This document shows, piece by piece, positions 3,686 to 27,028 of a DNA stretch of 64,000 bases (positions are counted from its first letter, which is position 1; each line of letters opens with the position of its first letter). This DNA comes from Oidiodendron maius Zn (lineage: Eukaryota; Ascomycota; Leotiomycetes; Myxotrichaceae): assembly GCA_000827325.1 (NCBI GenBank), contig KN832878.1:496001-560000 (forward strand). The letters run 5' to 3'. Under the pieces are notes generated by a model, which was not told the DNA's origin, made no database searches, and saw nothing but the letters and a program-made list of their open reading frames with translations. Made by a program: the position numbers and the translations under genes.

Positions 3686-4347
3686 GATTGCTGGAGACAG
3701 CTCTTCGCGATATCCAGGTATGGCTGCTGTGCTGGACTCGACGGAATTTATTCATTGCTGTAGATAGCGGCTTTATACTCCACAAAGAAAAAAAAGATAG
3801 ACACAAAAAACCAGCCTTATTATGCTGAGTCTGGCTACCTGCTTAGTAGGTAACGTTGCTCGTGTCGATCATCATCGGAAGAAACAAGTACGAAGTGCAG
3901 CGGGGATGCAAGAACGGGATTAATATATAGCGAAAGTGGGGAGCTCAACAACCCCAAGTCTGTATCCGAAACCTTGACAATTGGCACATGGGAGCAGGAA
4001 AGGAAGACAGTGGGATAGTGGAGATCTTCGCATAAACATAATATGGGTGAAGAGCGACTTGCTACGTTACTAAGTAGTATATGCCCATCGCGAATGTACC
4101 GGGAGGTCCATTAGTTCAAGCTGGAAGACCATTGTCTCACAAAACGCAGTAGATGAGACAGATGTGATTTAGATAAGGAAAGCCGAAGGCGAGGTCGGCT
4201 ATTAGGGCCATACGACAGATCACGGAAACATGGGATAAATTCACATGTGTCTCCATTAAACTTTAGTTACTGATGAGACAAATGATAGAGCCAGACCAGA
4301 ATGCTTGCAACCCTGTAACAATCACCTTATTTACCCATTCCACTCCT
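3686..4347. other. Intergenic region between ADE6 stop and GH20 start
   Basis: Promoter side of the GH20 gene and 3' region of the FGAM synthase gene; both are read leftward. I see no further gene. A-rich tracts near 3780-3800 lie about 100 bp upstream of the GH20 ATG. Confidence 0.4.
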
Positions 4348-7300
4348 CTAACCAACCCATCTCCTTGCACTCCTAAACATGCGAACCCAAGGCCCAAACT
4401 CTCCCCACTCCTCCTGCTTTCCAGGCGGGATATAACTCCCCACGTCGGCCATGATGGTCCGCTCTGGGTGGGGCATCATCGCCAAGACTCTACCGTCCAT
4501 ACTTCGCACAGCAGCAACACCTTCAGGGCTGCCGTTGGGGTTGAACGGGTAGCGAGTCGTGACGCTTCCTCTGTTCTCTGTGTACCTGATGGGAATGAGC
4601 CCGTCAGCATTCATGGTCTCCAGATCCTGTTGGTTGCGGAAAGCGGCTCGACCCTCGCCATGTGAGACAACGATGGGGAGCGCGGAGCCGTTCATGCCAT
4701 GCAGGAACACCGAAGGGGTTTTGCTATTATCTTGAATGCGGACCATAGAAACGCGACCTTCAAATTGCTGGGACTTGTTCTCGAGGAATAGTGGCCAGTG
4801 TCGGGTGCCAGGGATCAGTTCAGCAATGCGGGTGAACATCTGACAGCCGTTGCAGACTCCCAAAGCGAATGTATCAGGTCGGGCGAAGAAGCGTTGGAAT
4901 TCAGGTCTTGCATTCTCCTCATGCATCAGAATTGACTTGGCCCAACCTTGACCTGCTCCAAGGACGTCACCATAGGAGAAGCCGCCACAAGCTGCGATAC
5001 CGACGAAATCTGATAGGGTACGCCCTCCGATAATGTCACTCATGTGTATGTCAATAGGATTGAATCCTGCTGCTTTGAATGCAAATGCCATTTCAGCGTG
5101 GCCATTTACTCCTTGTTCACGCAAGATCGCAACTCGGGGTGCTTTGATGAAAGAGCTAGTGAGCGAGCTAACGAATGGGAGTATAGTATCCTTGGGGTCA
5201 TAGGTTAGTTTAAAGTGCAGTCCAGGGTCGTGGTTGTCAAGAATGTTCTCAAACTCCGCATCTGCGCACCCCATATTGTCTCTCAGTCGTTGCATTTGAT
5301 GCGATGTCCTCGACCACAGTTGCTGTAATTCTGCTCGATCCATTCGTAAGGCTGTGTTCTGGAAATAGCGGACAGAAAGCTGTTGCTTGGCTGTTGCAGG
5401 AACGCGACCTATTTTGCGAATTAGACCTGGTGGTGGTCCACAGGTCGCAAAGCAGCGAATAAAGTTGGTCTCATCAGCTTTGCGTACTTGGAAAATAGCC
5501 CCAAGCTCTTCGTTGAAAAGAGCCTCTGTGATATGCGACAGGGAGGAGCTTTTGGAGAAGCCATCAACTATGATCTCCGCTCCGCATCGTCCAGCAAACA
5601 TCATCTCCGCGATAGCAGTAATGAGACCACCATCTGAGATGTCGTGGTAAGCGAGGACGATACCAGACTGATGTAACTGTAGAATGGCATCGTAGTAATC
5701 AATCAAAAGACTTGCATCTCTCACATCAGGAGATTCGTTTCCAAGTTTCCCAAATGCCTGAGCGAGTGCTGAACCTCCCATGGCCTGTTTTCCTAGTGCA
5801 AGATCAACATACATTAGAATAGTCTCTCCCACATCTTCGATCCGGCGAAGAGTTGGTGTCCATGTACTGCGGACATTAGCAACAGGAGCGAAGGCTGATA
5901 TAACCACCGTCATAGGAGCAGTGACGGCTTTTGCCTCTCCAGATTTCCGATCTTTCCATGTTGCCTTCATTGACGTTGAGTCTTTACCAACAGGAATACT
6001 GACTCCAAGCTTTGGGCATAGCTCCATACCAATTGCCTGGACAGCATCATACAAAGCCGCGCCTTCACCAGGGTGATTCACTGCTGCCATCCAGTTGGCA
6101 GATAGGCGGACACGGGGGAGGTCTCCGAGGACATAAGCAGCCGCCAAGTTCATCAAGCTCTCAGCTACAGCCATCCTCGCAGAAGCGGCTGGTGAAATAA
6201 GAGCCAATGTCGGTTTCTCGCCCATGCTCATAGCCTCGCCGGTCTTGAGCTTGTCTCCAATATTCAAGGCCGTTGCGGTTACTGCTACATCAGCAACAGG
6301 AGTCTGCCATGGACCAACCATCTGATCTCGAACAGTCAGCCCTCCAACGGTACGATCTGCAATGGTAATGAGGAAAGATTTCGAGCCAACCGCCGGAAGC
6401 GTTAAAACTCTCTCAACAGCCATTCGCAGTAAGTCATGATCCGGAATATGAGGATACGTCTCACTCAAGGTTTGAAAGGCTTCAAAAGGCTTAAGGTTGA
6501 GCTTCCTAGACTTGACTATCCGGTCCAATTTGCGGTCCTTGGGGAATAGTGTTGACATGGGAAGGTCAATAGGAACTGGGTACTCTTTGGATTCTCGATC
6601 AGTTAAAATGAGCCTGGACATGCCATCCTGCGTTTTCGCAATGACAGATCCAACATCAGAAAATCCGCATCGCTCGCGGTCTACGTTTTATCAGCAGAGA
6701 AATATCTAAAAGGTCGATGGAACATACTTGCGATGCTGACGAACTTGTTCAACCCGTCTTGGTTAATAATCAAGACATACCGTTCTTGAGCTTCACAGCA
6801 CCATATCTGCAATGGACTCATGCTGCTGTCAGCACTCTCGATCTGCCTGAGTTCGAACCTTCCACCATATCCTGCGTCTTTCACGAGCTCAGGAAGAGCA
6901 TTAGAAAGCCCACCAGCTCCCACGTCATGGATGAAGGCAATAGGATTGCTTTCACCCAAGGCAACGCAAGCGTTGATAACCATCTGAGCTCTTCGTTCCA
7001 TTTCAGGGTTACCTCTCTGAACGCTATCGAAGTCTAACTCCACAGATCCTTCACCAGACGCATTACTAGACGCGGCGCCACCACCAAGCCCAATCAGCAT
7101 CGCAGGTCCTCCGAGGACAATGACATGTGCTCCTTCTTTGACATCCCGCCCATCTTTAATGGCGTGTTGAGGTCTGACAGTCCCGATACCACCTGCAATC
7201 ATGATCGGCTTGTGATATCCTCGTACTTCGTGTCCATCGGCTCCAGCATCAGTATCAGTGAGGAGCGTCCTAAAGCAGCCAGTTAAGCAAGGTCGGCCGA

Positions 7301-8600
7301 ACTCATTGTTGAATCTGGCACTGCCGATGGGAGCTTCGAGCATGATATCTAAACTACTCGCGTAGTGTGCCGGCTTGCCTACGTCAATTTCCCACGGCAT
7401 AGGATGATCCGGAATCAGTAGATCCGAGACCCAGAAACCGCAAAGACCGGCTTTGGGAGTTGACCCCCGCCCAACAGCGCCCTCGTCTCTTATTTCTCCT
7501 CCAGAGCCAGTTGCAGCTCCTGGAAATGGAGAAATAGCAGTCGGGTGATTATGGGTTTCCACTTTCGCGAGGAAATGGACTCTCTCTTTAATCTGCTTCC
7601 AACTTCCGGTGGAATAATCGGGGGCCCAGAAACTGGCCATCTCACCTTGGAGGACTGCGGCATTGTCGCTGTAGGCGGAAACGGTGAACTCCGGGTTTTG
7701 TTTGTGGGTATTTCGAATCATCTCGAATAAACTAGATCCCATGCCCATGCCATCAATGGTCCAGTTGGCGTTAAATTGCTTGTGTCGGCAGTGCTCTGAA
7801 TTGACTTGCGCAAACATGAACAATTCGATGTCGTAAGGGGGTCTACCCAATTGGGTGTACGCTTGGATAAGATATTCCATCTCAAGATGATCTAACGCAA
7901 GGCCCCGCTTGGAGTTGTAAGCCTTCAAGACCTCAAGAGGTGTGGTTCCCCTGGCCCATAAGTCAATAGCTTCTAAAGGGAAGGGACTGCCCGTGGCAAA
8001 CATCTCTTCTGGAACAGGTTCAGTGGTGCTGATATTTTCAGTCATTCGATCATAAATTACATCTTTTAGGTCGCCATCCGAGTCATCCAGCGATTCAGAA
8101 AAGCTGATTAGAATAGCACGACCTCTCTCAATTCGATCGACTCGCTCTTTCAGGCCGCAAACGTGGGCGATGCTGGTGGCTTTGGAGCTCCATGGCGAGA
8201 TGTTCCGAGGGGTAATGTAATAGATACGGGTGAGAGTTCCTGGCTTTGCTGTTAAGATAGTCGATGCCTCTGAATCCAGAACTCCAGGAAGGATTTGGTT
8301 GATTTTCTGTTCTGTGCTCTTTAGGCGTTGTCAGCAAGCTTCCTGGGCTTTGCCGTCATGTTTCAACGGATCGCCCAAAATCCATTGATCTCATGGCTTA
8401 TTCTACAACGAAATACAAAAGCAAGAGGAGGTCGTGCTCACTTCCGCTGTATACTGATCTGATAGTTTCAGATGAGTATAATGAATCCATACGCCACGAA
8501 TGTCATTGACCCTGTAGCCAAGTCTGTTGATGCGGCCAGCCAGCTTCCTTGCCTCTGGAGCCGTAAAACAGGGTTCACCAGGGGAAACGAGGTACTCCAT
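4348..8600 (-). CDS. ADE6: Phosphoribosylformylglycinamidine synthase (FGAM synthase)
   Basis: Fourth step of de novo purine synthesis: ATP- and glutamine-dependent conversion of FGAR to FGAM in the cytosol. Three exons (8442-8600, 6728-8318, 4348-6680) with introns of 123 and 47 bp give 1360 residues, practically the length of the yeast enzyme. The N-terminal PurS-like part starts MEYLVSPGEP. The AIRS-type synthetase half carries VETHNHPTAISPFPGAATGSGG and later HDISDGG. The C-terminal glutamine amidotransferase has its nucleophile in GVCNGCQM (Cys about 1193) and the His-Glu of HPE about 1321-1323. The first intron ends at an unusual TAAAG acceptor, so that boundary is less certain. The gene diverges from the PQ-loop gene. 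It is intact and shows no oddities. Confidence 0.96.
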
Positions 8601-9147
8601 GGTATCTTTATACAGCTATCTTTGTCGTTCAGTAGTCTCCAGGAGCTATGTTGACGCTTCGCTGAAAGGGATTCGCGTTTCAGACTGAATAATGCTGCCC
8701 TGTGTTACCTTCTCGAATTCAATTCAACCAGCAACCAATTAAGGAGCTGGAGGCAAGGCAATGAGGGCTTGAATCCAGTGAGATCGCTCTCAGCGACTCT
8801 CAGTGCAGTAAGCAGCAGACGTTGTTTGGAAATGTGAACTCACCAACTATGAAGTTAGTAGATCATGGTGGGGGAAAACTGCAGATAAATTTTGGTCACC
8901 CCGCGACACCAGCCACAAGCGCCACAGTTCCGGATTAATTAAATTCCTAGTCCGGTATTTCAGCTTCTGGATCTCACCCAACGGAAATTGAGATGACCAA
9001 GGGTCATTCAGCGTTGTTTTCCTTGGTTGCAACAGTTTCACATATCCATTTGTTTTTTGTCTAAATTTGCTGCACATAGATGGACACATTATAGACCTCT
9101 CTTACTCGTTCCGATCGCGATCCGCCCATTCCATTCAACCCGACAAG
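8601..9147. promoter_or_regulatory. Divergent promoter region between ADE6 and the PQ-loop gene
   Basis: 547 bp separate two divergently transcribed start codons, so both promoters must lie here. Shared control is possible but nothing in the sequence proves it. No uORF of note and no recognised operator was found by eye. Confidence 0.4.
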
Positions 9148-11039: not shown

Positions 11040-11700
11040 CCTATCCTCGTGCTTCTATTTAACGAGTCCTCGTCCAGCTTCTCTCTCATTTTCTCTCTTC
11101 CTCCCCACTTCAATCTCGACTTCGCGCTCACTCAACAAACAAAGCTGCCCTCTCTCTAAACCTCTCTAGTTCCTCGAAAGGTATATCTTCTCTCCGATTT
11201 TTTCTTCCTTCAAACTCCTCGTTAATATTCATTCTCCAGCATCCCACAATCCAAACACTCCTCAGCCCAAAACCTAATTCAGCACGATGTGCGTAATCCA
11301 TCCCTTTCATTGTCTTCATCCTTCTCAACTACATCTACCTTCCTACCTCCACCTCTTCCTCGTCTAAAATCTCAAATCAAGCCCCTCCCATATCCACCCA
11401 GAGACCAGAGTGTCTCCGATCCGTCCCTCTCACCCGTCTACAGTCATTCACCTTGTCCCACTACTCTTCCTTCAACATTTCAACACATTCTCTTCTAATA
11501 TTCTGCCCACCGCCTCGAGGACAAATTTCCTTACATACGCTTCCATTTAAGGCCCGTCTTCTACCTTCAGCTAGCTAGGAACTCCTAGAATCTGGAACTT
11601 CAACGCGCACACTAATGCTCTCATCTCAACTCTCCTTCTGGTCTGATATGGCGAGCCTAGTCGATCTTAGAAGTTTGTACTGACAAACATCTTGCTGCAG
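11040..11700 (+). promoter_or_regulatory. Pyrimidine-rich leader with likely 5'-UTR intron end
   Basis: The 650 bp before the repeat-exon gene are strongly C/T-rich on the plus strand (clearest at 11290-11500), as is common around transcription starts of well-expressed fungal genes. Just before the ATG there is a textbook intron end: branch-like TACTGAC at 11678-11684 and acceptor CTGCAG ending at 11700. A 5'-UTR intron is therefore likely. Its donor may be the GTGCGT at about 11289, but this is not certain. The rest of 10561-11040 shows no gene. Confidence 0.4.
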
Positions 11701-11717
11701 AACCAACATTAGTCACC

Positions 11718-14700
11718 ATGCCCAACTGGAAGACCTACGAATCCTCTGTCCGCCTCCTGTCGGCTATCATCGCTGCTCATCCCGACCTGAAGCTTAACTA
11801 TGATGGTAAGCAAATTACTTTTCTTTTCTCTCTGCTTTCTGTCATCTACACAACACTAGCACCTTCTTTGCTCTGCGTCAGTTTACCTTTTGCTCAAATC
11901 TCAATCCTGTCAATCCTGCGATATTCCTGATGCACTCGCAGAAGTGGGCAAGAAGTATGGTGGCGGAACGAAATACAAGGCGATATGGGGTCGCATGGCC
12001 CAGATCAAAGAGAATGCCAGGTTGATTAACGAGGCTATCGCACATGGCATCGACCCCATTAGCGTTGAGTTGGCCGATGCCCCTTCTCGAAATTCAAAGG
12101 AAGGACAAGGTAGCTATGTCGCCGTCCTGATTCAATCACTCCTTGCACAGCACGACTACTCTGCATCTCCTCAATTTGACCCTTTCACAATTGATTTTGA
12201 TGTTTATTTTAAATCAGAAACAGCCAAGCTCTTCGGTGGCGGAGTCAAGTACTTTGCGGTCTGGTCCGTCATGGCTCAGATCAATGGTCACGCCTCCGCT
12301 TTAAGGGAGGCATATGATGGTGGCATTGACCCCTTCACCGTGGAGCTCAATAACGAGACTGCTGCACGAGGCAAGAAGAAGACCCAAGGTAACCATGGTC
12401 GCTGTCTCGAGTGGAGTTTCTTTTGTCTATTAGTATACAGCATTTGCCTCTTCGCCCTCTTTTCAGATTTCCTATTGATTCCTTCTAGTTCTTTCCCAGA
12501 AGATGGGTTCGGACTGCTCCGCAAGTGCCTTGGAAAACAGGTTTCGACGCATTAAGCAGGATAGCAAACGCATCAATGATGCCATATCTCGCGGCGTAGA
12601 TCCTTTAACTCTTGGCATTGGTAGCTGCGAAGGTATCAATTCGGGAACCCCTTGAAGCGCCTGTCCCCTCCTACAAAGCACTGCACAAGTTTTCTTTGTT
12701 ACCTGCTTTTATTGATACTTAGAAGAGACCGCTCATTTCTACGGTGAAGGCCTACATCCAAAAGCTCTTGAGACCCACATGTACCGTCATGTCAAACCCG
12801 TGGTTGCCCAGCTTCGTAGTGAGGTCGCACCTCCTGGAGATAGGCGGATTCAAGGGGGCGGGAGCAATAATGGTCAGGTTATTCCCTACACAGCGCGTTT
12901 TTGTTGATGATTTGAGAGTTCTTAAAAGTTCACACACATGTTGATGTTTCTGCGATAGCCCTGCATCGGCATTTAGGAAGTGACACAACGCCGGGGGCTC
13001 TTCGAGTTTACTTCACCCGTCACATCACGCCGAAGGTTCAGCTTATCCGAGACTCTGTCAATAATGGCGTCGATCCGAAAGACCTCAATCTTGAAAGCGT
13101 GTCCAAACTTAGTGGTACTGGCAAACGATATTTCTCGAATACATGTTTTCTTCACATTCTAGAGCCCAGCGCATATTGACCCTCGTCTACAGAAGTCCAG
13201 CAGTTCTTTGGCTCTGATGCTACGGCCAGCGGCATCAAATTCCAATTTGCTACTCGTATTAAGGAACATGTCAAGCTCTTGAAGCAGGCCCGAAGTGAAG
13301 GAAAGGACTGCAAGGACGTTGCCCTAAGTAGTGGCGGTAATGATAAGGGTCAGATCGCCGTTGATTTTAATTATGTTTATTATTTCTCTGTTACTGTACT
13401 TTCCACTTGGTGCTTGGGGTCACGAAGTTAATTTCCTCTCAGCTGTCGCTCGCACCATGGGCAGTGATGTCACTTCCAAGGCCATTCAGCATCAAATAGC
13501 TCGACTTAAGGTTTTTAGCAAGGCACAGTTAGAGGCTCTAGAGAGTGGAACTGATCCAAAGGATGTGACTCCTAGCGCTGGCAAGGACAATCAGGGTCAG
13601 AAGCTTGACACCTGTTTACCCCAATGCATCAAATATCCCTTGCCCATTTCTTTCCTGCACTCAGTCATGCCTTTTCCATTTGAAACCCCCTATTAATGCT
13701 TCGGCAGACATTTCCAAGTACTTCGGGAAAGACAGCACACCCGGTGGCATTGGCTTCCAATTCCGCCAGATCAAGCTTTATGCCAAGAGCCAGAAGCAAT
13801 GCGCCAATTCAGGCGGGGATCCTCAGACTCTTGGTATTGGGGCTGGTAAAGGCGAGGAGGCTAATGGCAAGGGTGACCAAAGTAGTGCTTTCCCTTGATG
13901 CGCCGCATATTGTTTCCTTTAGATCCATTTGAACCAAGGACCAGCAAATTGATGTTGATGCAGCTATTGCAGCCTACTACCCAGACGGAAGTCGAGACTC
14001 TTTGCAGCATCGGTTTTGAACAATTCTTGCTGAGGGCCATCGTCTGAGACATGGAGGATGTGAGGCTTCCGCAGTGCGGATCTTCGTTCGTTGCAAGGCC
14101 CTTCATGCCAATTACACAATGTTTCTGCCACTGAGGATCATGTTAACCAGGTTATAGCAATCGCACTGCATCTAAATAATGATACTACGGTCACTGCTCT
14201 AGAGCATCGCTTCCGTCCTATCAAAAGAGATGCTATCGCCATGCGAGCCGGTACTGGGTCCTCAACGGAAGAAACTTGTGCCCTTCCATGTTTCCATCTC
14301 CTTACATTGAATCTCCTTTAGTCTTCGCATGCCCCAAGTCACCCATATCTTTTGTTGATCATTAGCTAACTTCTCACAGCCGTAGCCAATAACTTTGGTC
14401 AAGGCATCACAGGTAAGGCTGTCAGCGAGCGCATGCTTCGCATGAAGAAGGAAGACGCATGGAATCTGAACATTAACCGCGAAATAGCTTCGACCCCTCG
14501 TGGTAAGAAGGCCACTCCTAAGAAGAAGGTTGAGGACGATGCTCAGTTCGTCGATGATGATGAGGAGGACCTGACCACCCCGTCAAAGAAGAAAGGTCCG
14601 CTTAACAAGGTCAACAATGGCCGCATTACAAAGAAGAAGGGTGGTGCCGGTGCGAGTGCCGGTAGTTCCTTCAATGACAACATTATCAAGGACGAATACG

Positions 14701-14828
14701 CGGCCGGCTTCAACACTCCTGAGAATGCTTACGGGTATAATCCTGCCAACTATGACATTCAGGAGTTTGCTCGTGAGCAAGTAGAAGAAAACGCTGTCTA
14801 CTATGACAATGACGACACTGAGGCTTAG
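11718..14828 (+). CDS. Tandem repeat-exon protein with Myb/SANT-like half-repeats, probably nuclear
   Basis: Not a family I can name. My model has 11 exons and 630 residues: 11718-11805, 11942-12109, 12218-12388, 12489-12632, 12723-12872, 12959-13114, 13193-13348, 13443-13595, 13708-13872, 14158-14250, 14380-14828. The first repeat (exons 1 and 2) is preceded by a helix starting WKTYESSVRLLSAI, so it resembles a whole Myb/SANT-type domain. Each later exon encodes one half-repeat of the form FG-x-[DG]-x-T-x-x-A-[IL]-x-x-R-[FM]-x-x-IK, often followed by a G-x-DP spacer. All internal exons are multiples of three and start in phase 1. The C-terminus is Lys-rich with acidic runs (GKKATPKKK, DDDEED), fitting a chromatin-associated protein. 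DNA binding is inferred. The exon 10 donor is ambiguous (14250 or 14277). Intron 9 (13873-14157) contains a decayed repeat. Confidence 0.75.
13923..14080 (+). pseudogene. Decayed repeat exon inside intron 9 of the repeat-exon gene
   Basis: Between exons 9 and 10 the sequence still encodes a recognisable repeat: DVDAAIAAYYPDGSRDSLQHRF, then a TGA stop at 14017-14019 where the other repeats have Arg or similar, then TILAEGHRLR. A usable acceptor (TTTAG ending 13922) remains, but splicing there in phase 1 enters the wrong frame by one base. The unit thus carries both a frameshift and a nonsense codon and is probably skipped. It occupies the position expected for a ninth repeat. Confidence 0.65.
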
Positions 14829-23111: not shown

Positions 23112-25200
23112 CTTGGCAGATTGAAGTTGTGCTTTACTCTCCCTGCAAGAGGAGAAGAGACGCGCTCCAAGCCGTTTGGTGGTGATTTCCCCCTAATCGA
23201 CTCGGAGAGTTTGATCAGGGACTTGGCGGCAGCCTGGCTTTCGCGCCTGAGGCATTCACGATGACATCTCGGCATTTACCTTGGCAAAGAGACGCACATG
23301 AAAACCTGCCCTGCTCTCGGGCATTGAACCATGATGCGGCGACTGCATTACTGCATTCCACATCGTAATGGGACACTTGCGTAAGGCAATTGAAGTTCCT
23401 ACGTGTGTTTCCTGGCACCGTAATCAGAACGGTCGAGAGTGAACCCCCAACTTCCGCCCCGATACTGCATTGTTTCAACTGTGTCGCACCCGAGCTGCCG
23501 TACACTCTGCAGGGCTTTTCAAGCCAAGACATTTTGATCTGACTAATCCAGCTCACCCAGACATGAGAGACGTAAATATTATCAAATAAGTCGCGACAAA
23601 CTGCATCAATTATCTGCATCCATCACGAACGCCCCAAGAATTATCACCTGACAAAATAAAATATAAAAGAAGTCATTCTAACTCCTCTTGTGTGCCCCAT
23701 TCACAACTTGAGCATGATCCTCCTAATTGTAGCTTCGTCACCTTGCGCATACGAAGCGACCAGATCCAAAGCCTTTCTGCGCGGATTTCTCATCCGGCGC
23801 CGGTGCCGGCAATAGTCCAGTAGCCAAGAGTGGAAGCAAGCATGATTTTGTAGAGAGGAGAAATGTACATGATGTACCTTGGCTCGGCCAGCCATTATAT
23901 TTCATATGCGAATGTCAACGATTGGCTATGCAGGCCAACGATGAGTAAGTGACCAACGCTGTAAATGGCAAAAGCAAGCTGGACGTGTGCTCGAGAGAGA
24001 AATTGGAATTGAAGAGGAGAATCAAAGCTCCGGTCGATCAGGAAGATATAGACGGCGAATGGGGCGGCTACAAAAGAAGTTCCTACAGCGTCACAGTCCC
24101 GCTTCTTCGAGCCTTTGCGCGACGTGGGCCCAGTTGAAATCATCTAAAGTGAGCCCACCTCGATCCTATCACTCTGTGTTGTAAATTTCCTGTTCAGCAA
24201 ACAGTCCAAAGGCCAATGCAAAAGAACATTGAGCATCAAAGAAAATCGTCACACAGACGACATTTTATGTCGAGATTTCCGCCACGCCTCCAGACGGATA
24301 GGAAACTGAAGCCAAGATCCACTATGCATAAGAGGAAGAAGATCATCCCAGTCGTATAAGACAAATTTGTCCATATCATTCAAGCGATCTCCGGCCTCAA
24401 GTTCGTCAATATTGAACGGCCCGTGATCAAGGGGGTCTACAAGTCGAACAACGCTATCCAGAGAACAATCACAATAAAATAGGACAAGTACGCTTTGTCT
24501 AGAAGTTAGCCTTCATTGTTCGGATAACGCTAATATCATCAGAGGAGAATAGCATTTCCTCACAGTACGAGGCATGGAAAGGAGATTTTCTTTCATATGA
24601 AAGGACGTTGGACGGGGTCATCCTCACGCTGCGGGCAGGAGTAGAAGCTACCAATCCACTGAGCTCCCAATAGTCCAACGAGAGGGCCTAAGGACGAGAT
24701 AGACCATCCTGTAGTTCTTGTGCTTCATCCATGGTCGCAATGGAGAGAAAAGAGCTCAGTGTTTGTGTTGCAATAAATTTGTGTGGGAGCATTCAGGCAG
24801 ATGATAAAACATACTTATGTGTTGTCGTCGAGGTGTGCCTCCTCCTCCCCGCCTCTTCTATGCCCAATAAATAGGCTTAGCTCATGCCAAGACATCGCAT
24901 GGCCACCTCGTAATCATAGAAATAGTAACCACTGGTAAACTCAAGCCAACCCAACGCTCTTCACCGATGGCCGTGTCACGAAGAAACTCATGGAGCGGAT
25001 TGTTATGCTTGTTGTGGTCTGGCGAGGAAATAAATAGAGGAACCAACACTAGGCGAGTTGGATATCCGGACACTGAAATCAGACCATGAACCAGCAGATA
25101 TGCGGTCTTTCGGAGCTGGGCCGACATGTCTAGCCTCTAAAAATGTCCAACAACAAGTTTTGGGACCAATAGAATAGTGTAATAAAATAACATTAATGGA
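23112..25200. other. Gene-poor intergenic DNA
   Basis: About 2 kb without a gene I can support. Open frames are short and without recognised domains. One leftward frame at 24882-25127 (81 codons) has coding-like composition but no family resemblance and no plausible partner exons. Confidence 0.4.
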
Positions 25201-25495
25201 ATGAAAGGAAAGGGAAAGGGAAAAGGAAAGGGAAGGAAAGGAAGGAAGGAAGGAAGGAAGGAAGGNNNNNNNNNNNNNNNNNNNNNNNNNNNNNNNNNNN
25301 NNNNNNNNNNNNNNNNNNNNNNNNNNNNNNNNNNNNNNNNNNNNNNNNNNNNNNNNNNNNNNNNNNNNNNNNNNNNNNNNNNNNNNNNNNNNNNNNNNNN
25401 NNNNNNNNNNNNNNNNGGGAAAGGGAAAAGGAAAGGGAAAGGGAAAGGGAAAGGGAAAGGGAAAGGGAAAGGGAAAGGGAAAGGGAGAAGGAAAA
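25201..25495. repeat. Purine-strand microsatellite (GGGAAA/GGAA) around an assembly gap
   Basis: The plus strand is nearly all G and A here: GGGAAA units and GGAA units on the left side, GGGAAA units on the right side. The assembly breaks in the middle with 151 N. The true repeat length is unknown. Apparent Lys-Gly, Ser-Leu or Phe-Pro open frames through this tract are artefacts of low complexity. Confidence 0.95.
25266..25416. other. Assembly gap (run of N)
   Basis: A run of 151 N inside the purine repeat. The size may be a placeholder rather than a measurement. Confidence 0.99.
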
Positions 25496-27028
25496 GAAAC
25501 GGAAAACAAGATGAGGAAGACGTAAAGCATTATAGCGCAACTATCACCTGGCTTCGAGAAAGAACAATGGACAAAAAGCCTTGGCGACGAACATGAAAGT
25601 TCCATGAGGAGAACCCAAAATCAGACCTATGGATAGGAGTTACTGTTGGCAAGGGGGAGAGAATGCTGTAGGAGCTCACCATGTTGCTGGCCTGCAAGGT
25701 GAAGTTTGGATCGCAGAGCAGGTGTAAACAAACCTTCGACATTGAAGGTCAAAGAGTTAGACAAATTCGGACTTTGTAGAAGCTGCATGCACATGTTAAA
25801 TCACGTGAAATAGCCCACGTGCAGGTGGGCTTTCCCGAAATGGGTATCAGAGGGGGGTTTTCAAGCAGCACCTCAATGTAAGCGGTATTGGCCTATCGGT
25901 TTCCAGTGAAGTATGGAACAGAACTCTCCGGTGAGATATTTACACTTCGAAGTAGTTAAAGAGGGTAAACAGCACTGTGGTACTTTCGCACATCCCTGGA
26001 TCCCTTAATATCTAGGTACCTTTAATACACTCTTTCAAAATAGAGCTAATCCCATGTGAACAGCTGGAAGGGGTCTATCCCTTAGCCCAAATGTGCGGCA
26101 AGGTCGTTGCTCTACTGGGTGCCATCCTTAAGTCCGTGTTCCAACTGTTGCCGGTGGTGCCGGACGAGTAAGTTTCTGAATCGGTGGCCAGCAGCCATGA
26201 AGTCAGTATCTCCAAATCGCGTGACCTGGCTGAATCATTCTTCCCGCAGATCTTCGGATTCCAGAATTCCAAATTGCATATCGGGAACCAGGCTGGCAAT
26301 TCCTTAAAGCTGATACTGATGGCCCTGGCTGGGCAACACGAACAGGCCGTCCCCTCTTCCAATCCGACATTCAGAGTGTATGATTTCATCGTCAGTTCAG
26401 ACCCATCACTGGCGTCTCCAAACTCAAATCCTTTCTCCCCGTGTCATGGCGGGGTCAAGTTCTGGACATGCCTCGAGGTATATATATCTTTTTAAATAAA
26501 CGAGGCCCACGGTACCACCAACCCCTTCAAGCCAGCTTCCGTACGGCATCTCGCTGCCTGGTTGCCTTGCTGCCTTAGGCCACATTAATCATTCTCTTCC
26601 CGTCACCCATCCACTTCCCCCATCGGTAGATCAAGCCGATATCAGCGCTATCCAGAGCATCAGATGCAGCAGATCCCACGCCCCACCGTACTGTCTCTCC
26701 TTACTCAAGATCTAAGCTCACGTCGGCTCTCCTGAATCAATCAAACGCCTCTCAATGTCGCTCCCTCTACACATCCCTCCGTCCCGCCCAAACTCCCTCA
26801 GAACTTCACCAACAAAACTTTCCGCCCCGCCCCGCCCCACGTTCCCGCTAGCAGGGTAAAGGCTCTTTGGGACGGCAGTTGCACAAACTCGGCACTTTGG
26901 TACCATTCCATCCTCTGGCCCTCTCGTCTCTTCCGGTCTTGCTGCTGCCCTTCGGATCATGTATTATCCAGCTATTCTCTCTCCTCTCTTTTCCCCGTTG
27001 ATCGCCACCGGACCCTCGAATTCCCACC
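25496..27028. other. Gene-poor region with two CACGTG boxes
   Basis: No gene supported. At 25801-25831 there are two CACGTG hexamers, the first as TCACGTGA and the second at the start of an inverted repeat AGCCCAC-GTGCAG-GTGGGCT. The stretch from about 26520 is GC-richer and pyrimidine-rich, resembling a promoter or leader. Confidence 0.4.

Follow-up and report, generated by a model that had tools for sequence, protein, structure and literature searches.

The question raised by this locus is whether a row of eleven exons, most of them short and alike, records the repeated duplication of one exon within a fungal gene and, if it does, what the duplicated unit encodes and how it is used. The window is the whole stretch of 64,000 nucleotides that was analysed (G000:C9:496001-560000), from a genome of 45.9 Mb in 58 contigs that displays fungal-specific transcription factor domains, a KRE2-type mannosyltransferase family and short introns, all fungal traits. 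(Note that window positions 25003-25620 hold a simple repeat containing a masked run of N.) Splicing of the eleven exons given in the table below yielded a coding sequence of 1893 nt, or 630 aa, with a single stop, at its end, and with phase 1 at all ten exon joins. This reproduces the lengths that an earlier note had given for exons 2 to 10, its phase-1 joins and its gene end at 14828. The same note had assigned one repeat to each exon after exon 2; homology bears out the repeats themselves, and their count is ten, because the last exon also opens with one. The array of related half-domain exons is thus confirmed as real, and ten consecutive exons with the same Myb-like half, the other half being encoded once, represent an unusual exon multiplication.

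Table. Features of the repeat-exon gene, in window coordinates (repeat scores are those of the leave-one-out analysis).
Feature	Position	Strand	Description
Exon 1	11718..11805	+	Start codon and predicted helix 1 of the Myb-like domain, 29 aa + 1 nt; donor GTAAGC; raises paralogue-profile score of helix 2-3 exons
Exon 2	11942..12109	+	168 nt, putative helix 2-3 repeat; held-out 50.1 bits
Intron 2	12110..12217	+	108 nt, open in frame; candidate retained intron
Exon 3	12218..12388	+	171 nt, putative helix 2-3 repeat; 45% identity with exon 2; held-out 35.4 bits
Exon 4	12489..12632	+	144 nt, putative helix 2-3 repeat; held-out 49.2 bits
Exon 5	12723..12872	+	150 nt, divergent repeat without G-x-DP spacer; held-out 12.5 bits
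Exon 6	12959..13114	+	156 nt, putative helix 2-3 repeat; held-out 40.5 bits
Exon 7	13193..13348	+	156 nt, putative helix 2-3 repeat; held-out 47.2 bits
Exon 8	13443..13595	+	153 nt, putative helix 2-3 repeat; its join to exon 1 ranks second; held-out 39.9 bits
Exon 9	13708..13872	+	165 nt, putative helix 2-3 repeat; held-out 37.9 bits
Possible decayed repeat exon in intron 9	13964..14060	+	In-frame TGA; suggestive only
Exon 10	14158..14250	+	93 nt, short repeat without spacer; held-out 15.1 bits
Exon 11	14380..14828	+	Opens with the repeat nearest the Pfam family; a Lys-rich acidic tail and the stop follow; held-out 14.0 bits

A leave-one-out analysis shows that the ten repeats are homologous. 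In particular, the profile built from the other nine found the held-out repeat in every case (10 of 10, 12.5-50.1 bits), and for each repeat the score was reached by none of 1000 shuffles of that repeat and by none of the 1509-1650 six-frame window pieces scored outside the gene. Exons 2 and 3 hold the closest pair of repeats, the remaining pairs being 12-37% identical; identity was 0.27 for adjacent repeats and 0.24 for other pairs. The G-x-DP spacer described in the earlier note is absent from exon 10 and has been lost from exon 5.

The repeat exons also carry the marks of coding sequence. When codon use was modelled on 28 long ORFs from outside the target gene, all 11 exons scored positive and highest in the frame of the gene model (in exon 5 a second frame was also just positive, at 0.2 versus 4.0), and introns read in frame scored lower than exons, intron 2 excepted (+2.3). 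The 489 aligned repeat codons include no stop, an outcome with a chance of ~5e-11 at the local base composition, but one to be read with the fact that the frames had been chosen as open. Between repeats, identity at codon positions 1, 2 and 3 was 0.462, 0.484 and 0.302, respectively, as against 0.290, 0.261 and 0.265 expected from composition (1970 codon pairs). The conservation of positions 1 and 2, together with a third position near expectation, argues that silent sites are near saturation and that protein-changing sites have been kept. This pattern shows that the repeat exons are old copies maintained for their protein sequence, and together with the phases and the leave-one-out homology it gives good support to the earlier proposal that a symmetric phase-1 exon was duplicated repeatedly.

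The repeats had been said to match no family, and for single frames this holds: the Pfam search returned no match at E 1 for any of ten frames. It does not hold for exon 1 joined to exon 11, which matches Pfam Myb_DNA-bind_8 (PF22980) at E 0.0019 and 17.9 bits, below the curated cut-off of 27. This match, the best among the ten exon 1 joins tried, spans residues 10-53 and crosses the join at residue 29. Only one other of the ten joins touched PF22980 (exon 8, 12.6 bits, E 0.085), the full model scored 12.3 bits, and neither any of the ten joins nor the whole protein reached the cut-off for membership. (Matches of exon 1 joins to KH_PARP14_3, MqsA_antitoxin and NamZ_C, with Pfam E values of 0.11-0.23, were taken as chance; NCBIfam gave no match.)

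A profile of six PF22980 members of the same genome, each checked piece by piece, gave a clearer view of which part of the domain lies where. Against this profile, exon 1 joined to exon 11 scored 18.1 bits, more than exon 1 alone (1.2) and exon 11 alone (9.2) combined, and none of 1000 shuffles of either half reached that score; the pattern of helix 1 followed by helices 2-3 resembles that of the same-genome members. Joins of exon 1 to exons 8, 10, 4 and 2 scored 10.9, 9.1, 8.2 and 7.1 bits, respectively (reached by 0-7 of 1000 shuffles of either half), and joins to exons 3, 5, 6, 7 and 9 scored -0.4 to 2.4 bits and could not be separated at 1% from joins to shuffled repeats. When consecutive repeats were joined, the upstream repeat contributed no score in any of nine cases. 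Since exon 1 raises the score and upstream repeats add none, this comparison shows a helix 1, as predicted by the profile, in exon 1 only, with the repeat exons carrying putative helices 2-3. The term half-repeat used in the earlier note would thus be right in a stronger sense than was meant, the location of helix 1 having been missed. Against this assignment, when the repeats and the paralogues were compared profile to profile (hhalign), the probability was only 2.9%, although one alignment involved contained two residues typed wrongly and, in one row, a surplus residue at a junction. A search of solved structures with the repeat profile gave as its best match 6ahx_A, a 'putative cytosolic protein' (weak, E 0.0095, 29 residues), and for exon 1 joined to exon 11 the best structural match was a ribosomal protein (E 0.07).

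PF22980 occurs at seven places in the genome (10 matches), and those paralogues that were read by eye set the target gene in context. As across the join of exons 1 and 11, helix 1 is usually separated from helices 2-3 by an intron, except at L009, where the domain is uninterrupted. The differences are that each of these paralogues has one domain whereas the target has ten half-domains and a match below the cut-off, and that the paralogue intron usually lies just before helix 2, at [IV]-D-[WF], about four codons ahead of the target's intron position, which also differs in phase from the one paralogue whose phase was read. (On another contig, the locus L021, at G000:C10:583500-593400, contains a small cluster of three Myb_DNA-bind_8-type genes within ~7 kb, at ~2249-2983, 4000-4834 and 8243-9036.) Genome protein searches revealed no second copy of the gene or of its repeats, all matches listed (2 of 2 and 10 of 10, counts that are lower bounds) falling at this locus. 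With exon 11 as the best fit to the family, a two-exon, single-domain gene whose phase-1 intron came to be occupied by helix 2-3 exons would be the simplest origin, and we infer that half-domain exons were multiplied inside that one intron.

We therefore favour, with slightly more confidence than doubt, a history in which an ancestral gene for a single Myb_DNA-bind_8-like domain gained and multiplied helix 2-3 exons within a phase-1 intron, with most or all of the resulting ten half-domain units now spliced into a basic protein of ~630 aa. The ancestor would have encoded helix 1 in exon 1 and helices 2-3 plus the tail in the last exon. The predicted product would begin with one complete Myb-like unit, continue with nine further two-helix units strung together by G-x-DP linkers and end in a Lys-rich acidic tail, and its units would most likely make many weak contacts with DNA or chromatin. 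By computed charge, exons 2 to 10 are neutral to basic (+0.2 to +2.8), exon 11 is acidic overall (-4.2) and the whole protein has a pI of 9.1. Two considerations lead us to favour a transcript with most exons included: constraint on the inner exons, and the reported rarity of exon skipping and mutual exclusion in fungi. According to the accessible text of PMC6176087, exon skipping accounts for <1% of events in the fungi covered there, and mutually exclusive exons for <0.2%. For S. commune, that of PMC5034255 gives skipping a 1% share in coding regions and also reports many mutually exclusive exons, mainly in UTRs.

The exon anatomy would also allow a choice among recognition halves, exon 1 being spliced to one or a few repeat exons and then to exon 11, such that isoforms would differ in a swappable helix 2-3. 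Since helix 1 is predicted only once and every helix 2-3 unit is preceded by an intron in the same position, phase would permit any splice, and exon 1 yields a family-like domain with exons 2, 4, 8, 10 and 11. The outer splice sites, moreover, are stronger than many inner ones. In an ab initio splice model built on 49 predicted introns from the window and nine loci (a noisy training set, from which the target gene was excluded), the donor of intron 1 is the best of the gene's ten, the acceptor of intron 10 is the best in the gene, and this acceptor, GCTAAC...CACAG before exon 11, lies at the 94th percentile. However, exon 11 already contributes a helix 2-3, which means that selection would not be limited to a single unit, and half of the ten partners do not resemble a domain with exon 1. 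Skipping would require introns of up to ~2.5 kb, compared with the 46-140 nt of the ab initio introns, a range that was itself the set limit of the search, and it would call on the kinds of splicing that are rare in the fungi cited above. Exact matches of intron 1 or intron 10 to the complements of other introns, as expected of docking sites, included no shared 7- or 8-mer beyond shuffles, though a 6-mer complement, AAGAAA with T tracts, did exceed them. (The word ATGTTT is common to six of the ten introns, P 0.01 against shuffles.) We regard this use of the array as unlikely, and a fungal combinatorial array comparable to those of animals, with one locus giving a set of Myb-like proteins that differ in their recognition helices, as less likely still; the inclusion of all repeats in one protein is our preference.

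No more probable than such a combinatorial array, in our estimate, is that the array was once used and its inner exons are today spliced inefficiently or left out, the working protein being approximately exon 1 plus exon 11, the best fit to the family. The donors of introns 5, 6, 7, 8 and 10 score below those of all 49 ab initio introns, exon 10 is short and exon 5 is altered, and intron 9, the longest at 285 nt, may hold a dead repeat. In ten comparisons by protein alignment, the candidate segment showed similarity to exon 10 (P 0.005) and to exon 4 (P 0.016); with the repeat profile it scored -0.6 bits while shuffles reached 6.8, and in DNA alignments with the ten exons none was significant (lowest P 0.105). 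These results are suggestive of a repeat that is possibly dying. Against decay of the array as a whole, the nine inner exons have remained without stop or frameshift despite nearly saturated third positions, their codon scores are positive, and a branch-like [CT]T[AG]A[CT] is kept in the last 30 nt of all ten introns (shuffle mean 2.1; none of 2000 shuffles reached 10), a motif that was chosen after looking. The donor weakness itself is uneven in a stricter set of 36 introns: G at +5 occurs in 4 of the gene's 10 introns and in 23 of the 36, a deficit that is not significant (P 0.28), although C at +3, in 3 of 10 and 0 of 36, is significantly in excess (P 0.008). (By eye, there is also a putative 5' UTR intron at window positions 11289-11701, GTGCGT ... 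TACTGACA ... CTGCAG, directly before the start codon.)

The least likely of the readings that we weighed is that the gene model is partly wrong, with intron 2 coding and some boundaries (exons 6, 9 and 10) different, giving fewer or longer units among which the repeats would remain: intron 2 may be retained, since it is open in frame with a positive codon score, its acceptor is the weakest of the ten and below all 49 ab initio introns, and alternative phase-1 donors were seen by eye at 13112 (exon 6) and 13882 (exon 9), but intron 2 is rich in T (0.36) and poor in G (0.14), as introns are, contains a TTGAT site, and has a translation not convincingly like helix 1. (A helix 1 hidden in intron 2 was rejected as a candidate, the similarity of the translation to exon 1 being not significant, P 0.077.) A point against the favoured reading is that the ab initio finder, in which the cost of each intron is about the score of one short exon, did not recover the full chain; it returned only 11718-12555, with intron 1, and, separately, 14433-14828.

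If its exons are used, the gene would clearly exemplify a fungal protein built up by repeated duplication of whole exons. Because the duplicated unit would be half a domain, it raises the question of whether helices 2-3 function without helix 1 or are paired with the single helix 1 by splicing. Among the literature matches listed, judged by title and the start of the abstract, none described a fungal tandem-exon array and none concerned Myb_DNA-bind_8, which does not prove absence from print but agrees with the rarity in fungi suggested by the earlier note. In the accessible text of PMC9013439, CadN, MHC and 14-3-3zeta are named for animal tandemly duplicated exons, and the words 'fungi' and 'fungal' occur zero times. 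Homologous adjacent exons of equal symmetric phase, by which tandem exon duplication is recognized, are what we find in the present gene. Like the animal arrays, of which Dscam is an example, it has a row of homologous symmetric exons within one gene. It differs from them in being fungal, in having exons that each correspond to a putative half of a DNA-binding-type domain, in holding a further repeat in the last constitutive exon, and in that, being known from DNA alone, it offers no evidence of mutually exclusive choice. Multi-repeat Myb proteins of the R1R2R3 type likewise consist of repeated helix-turn-helix units; in those proteins, however, three helices are present in every repeat, whereas here helix 1 appears to be encoded once.
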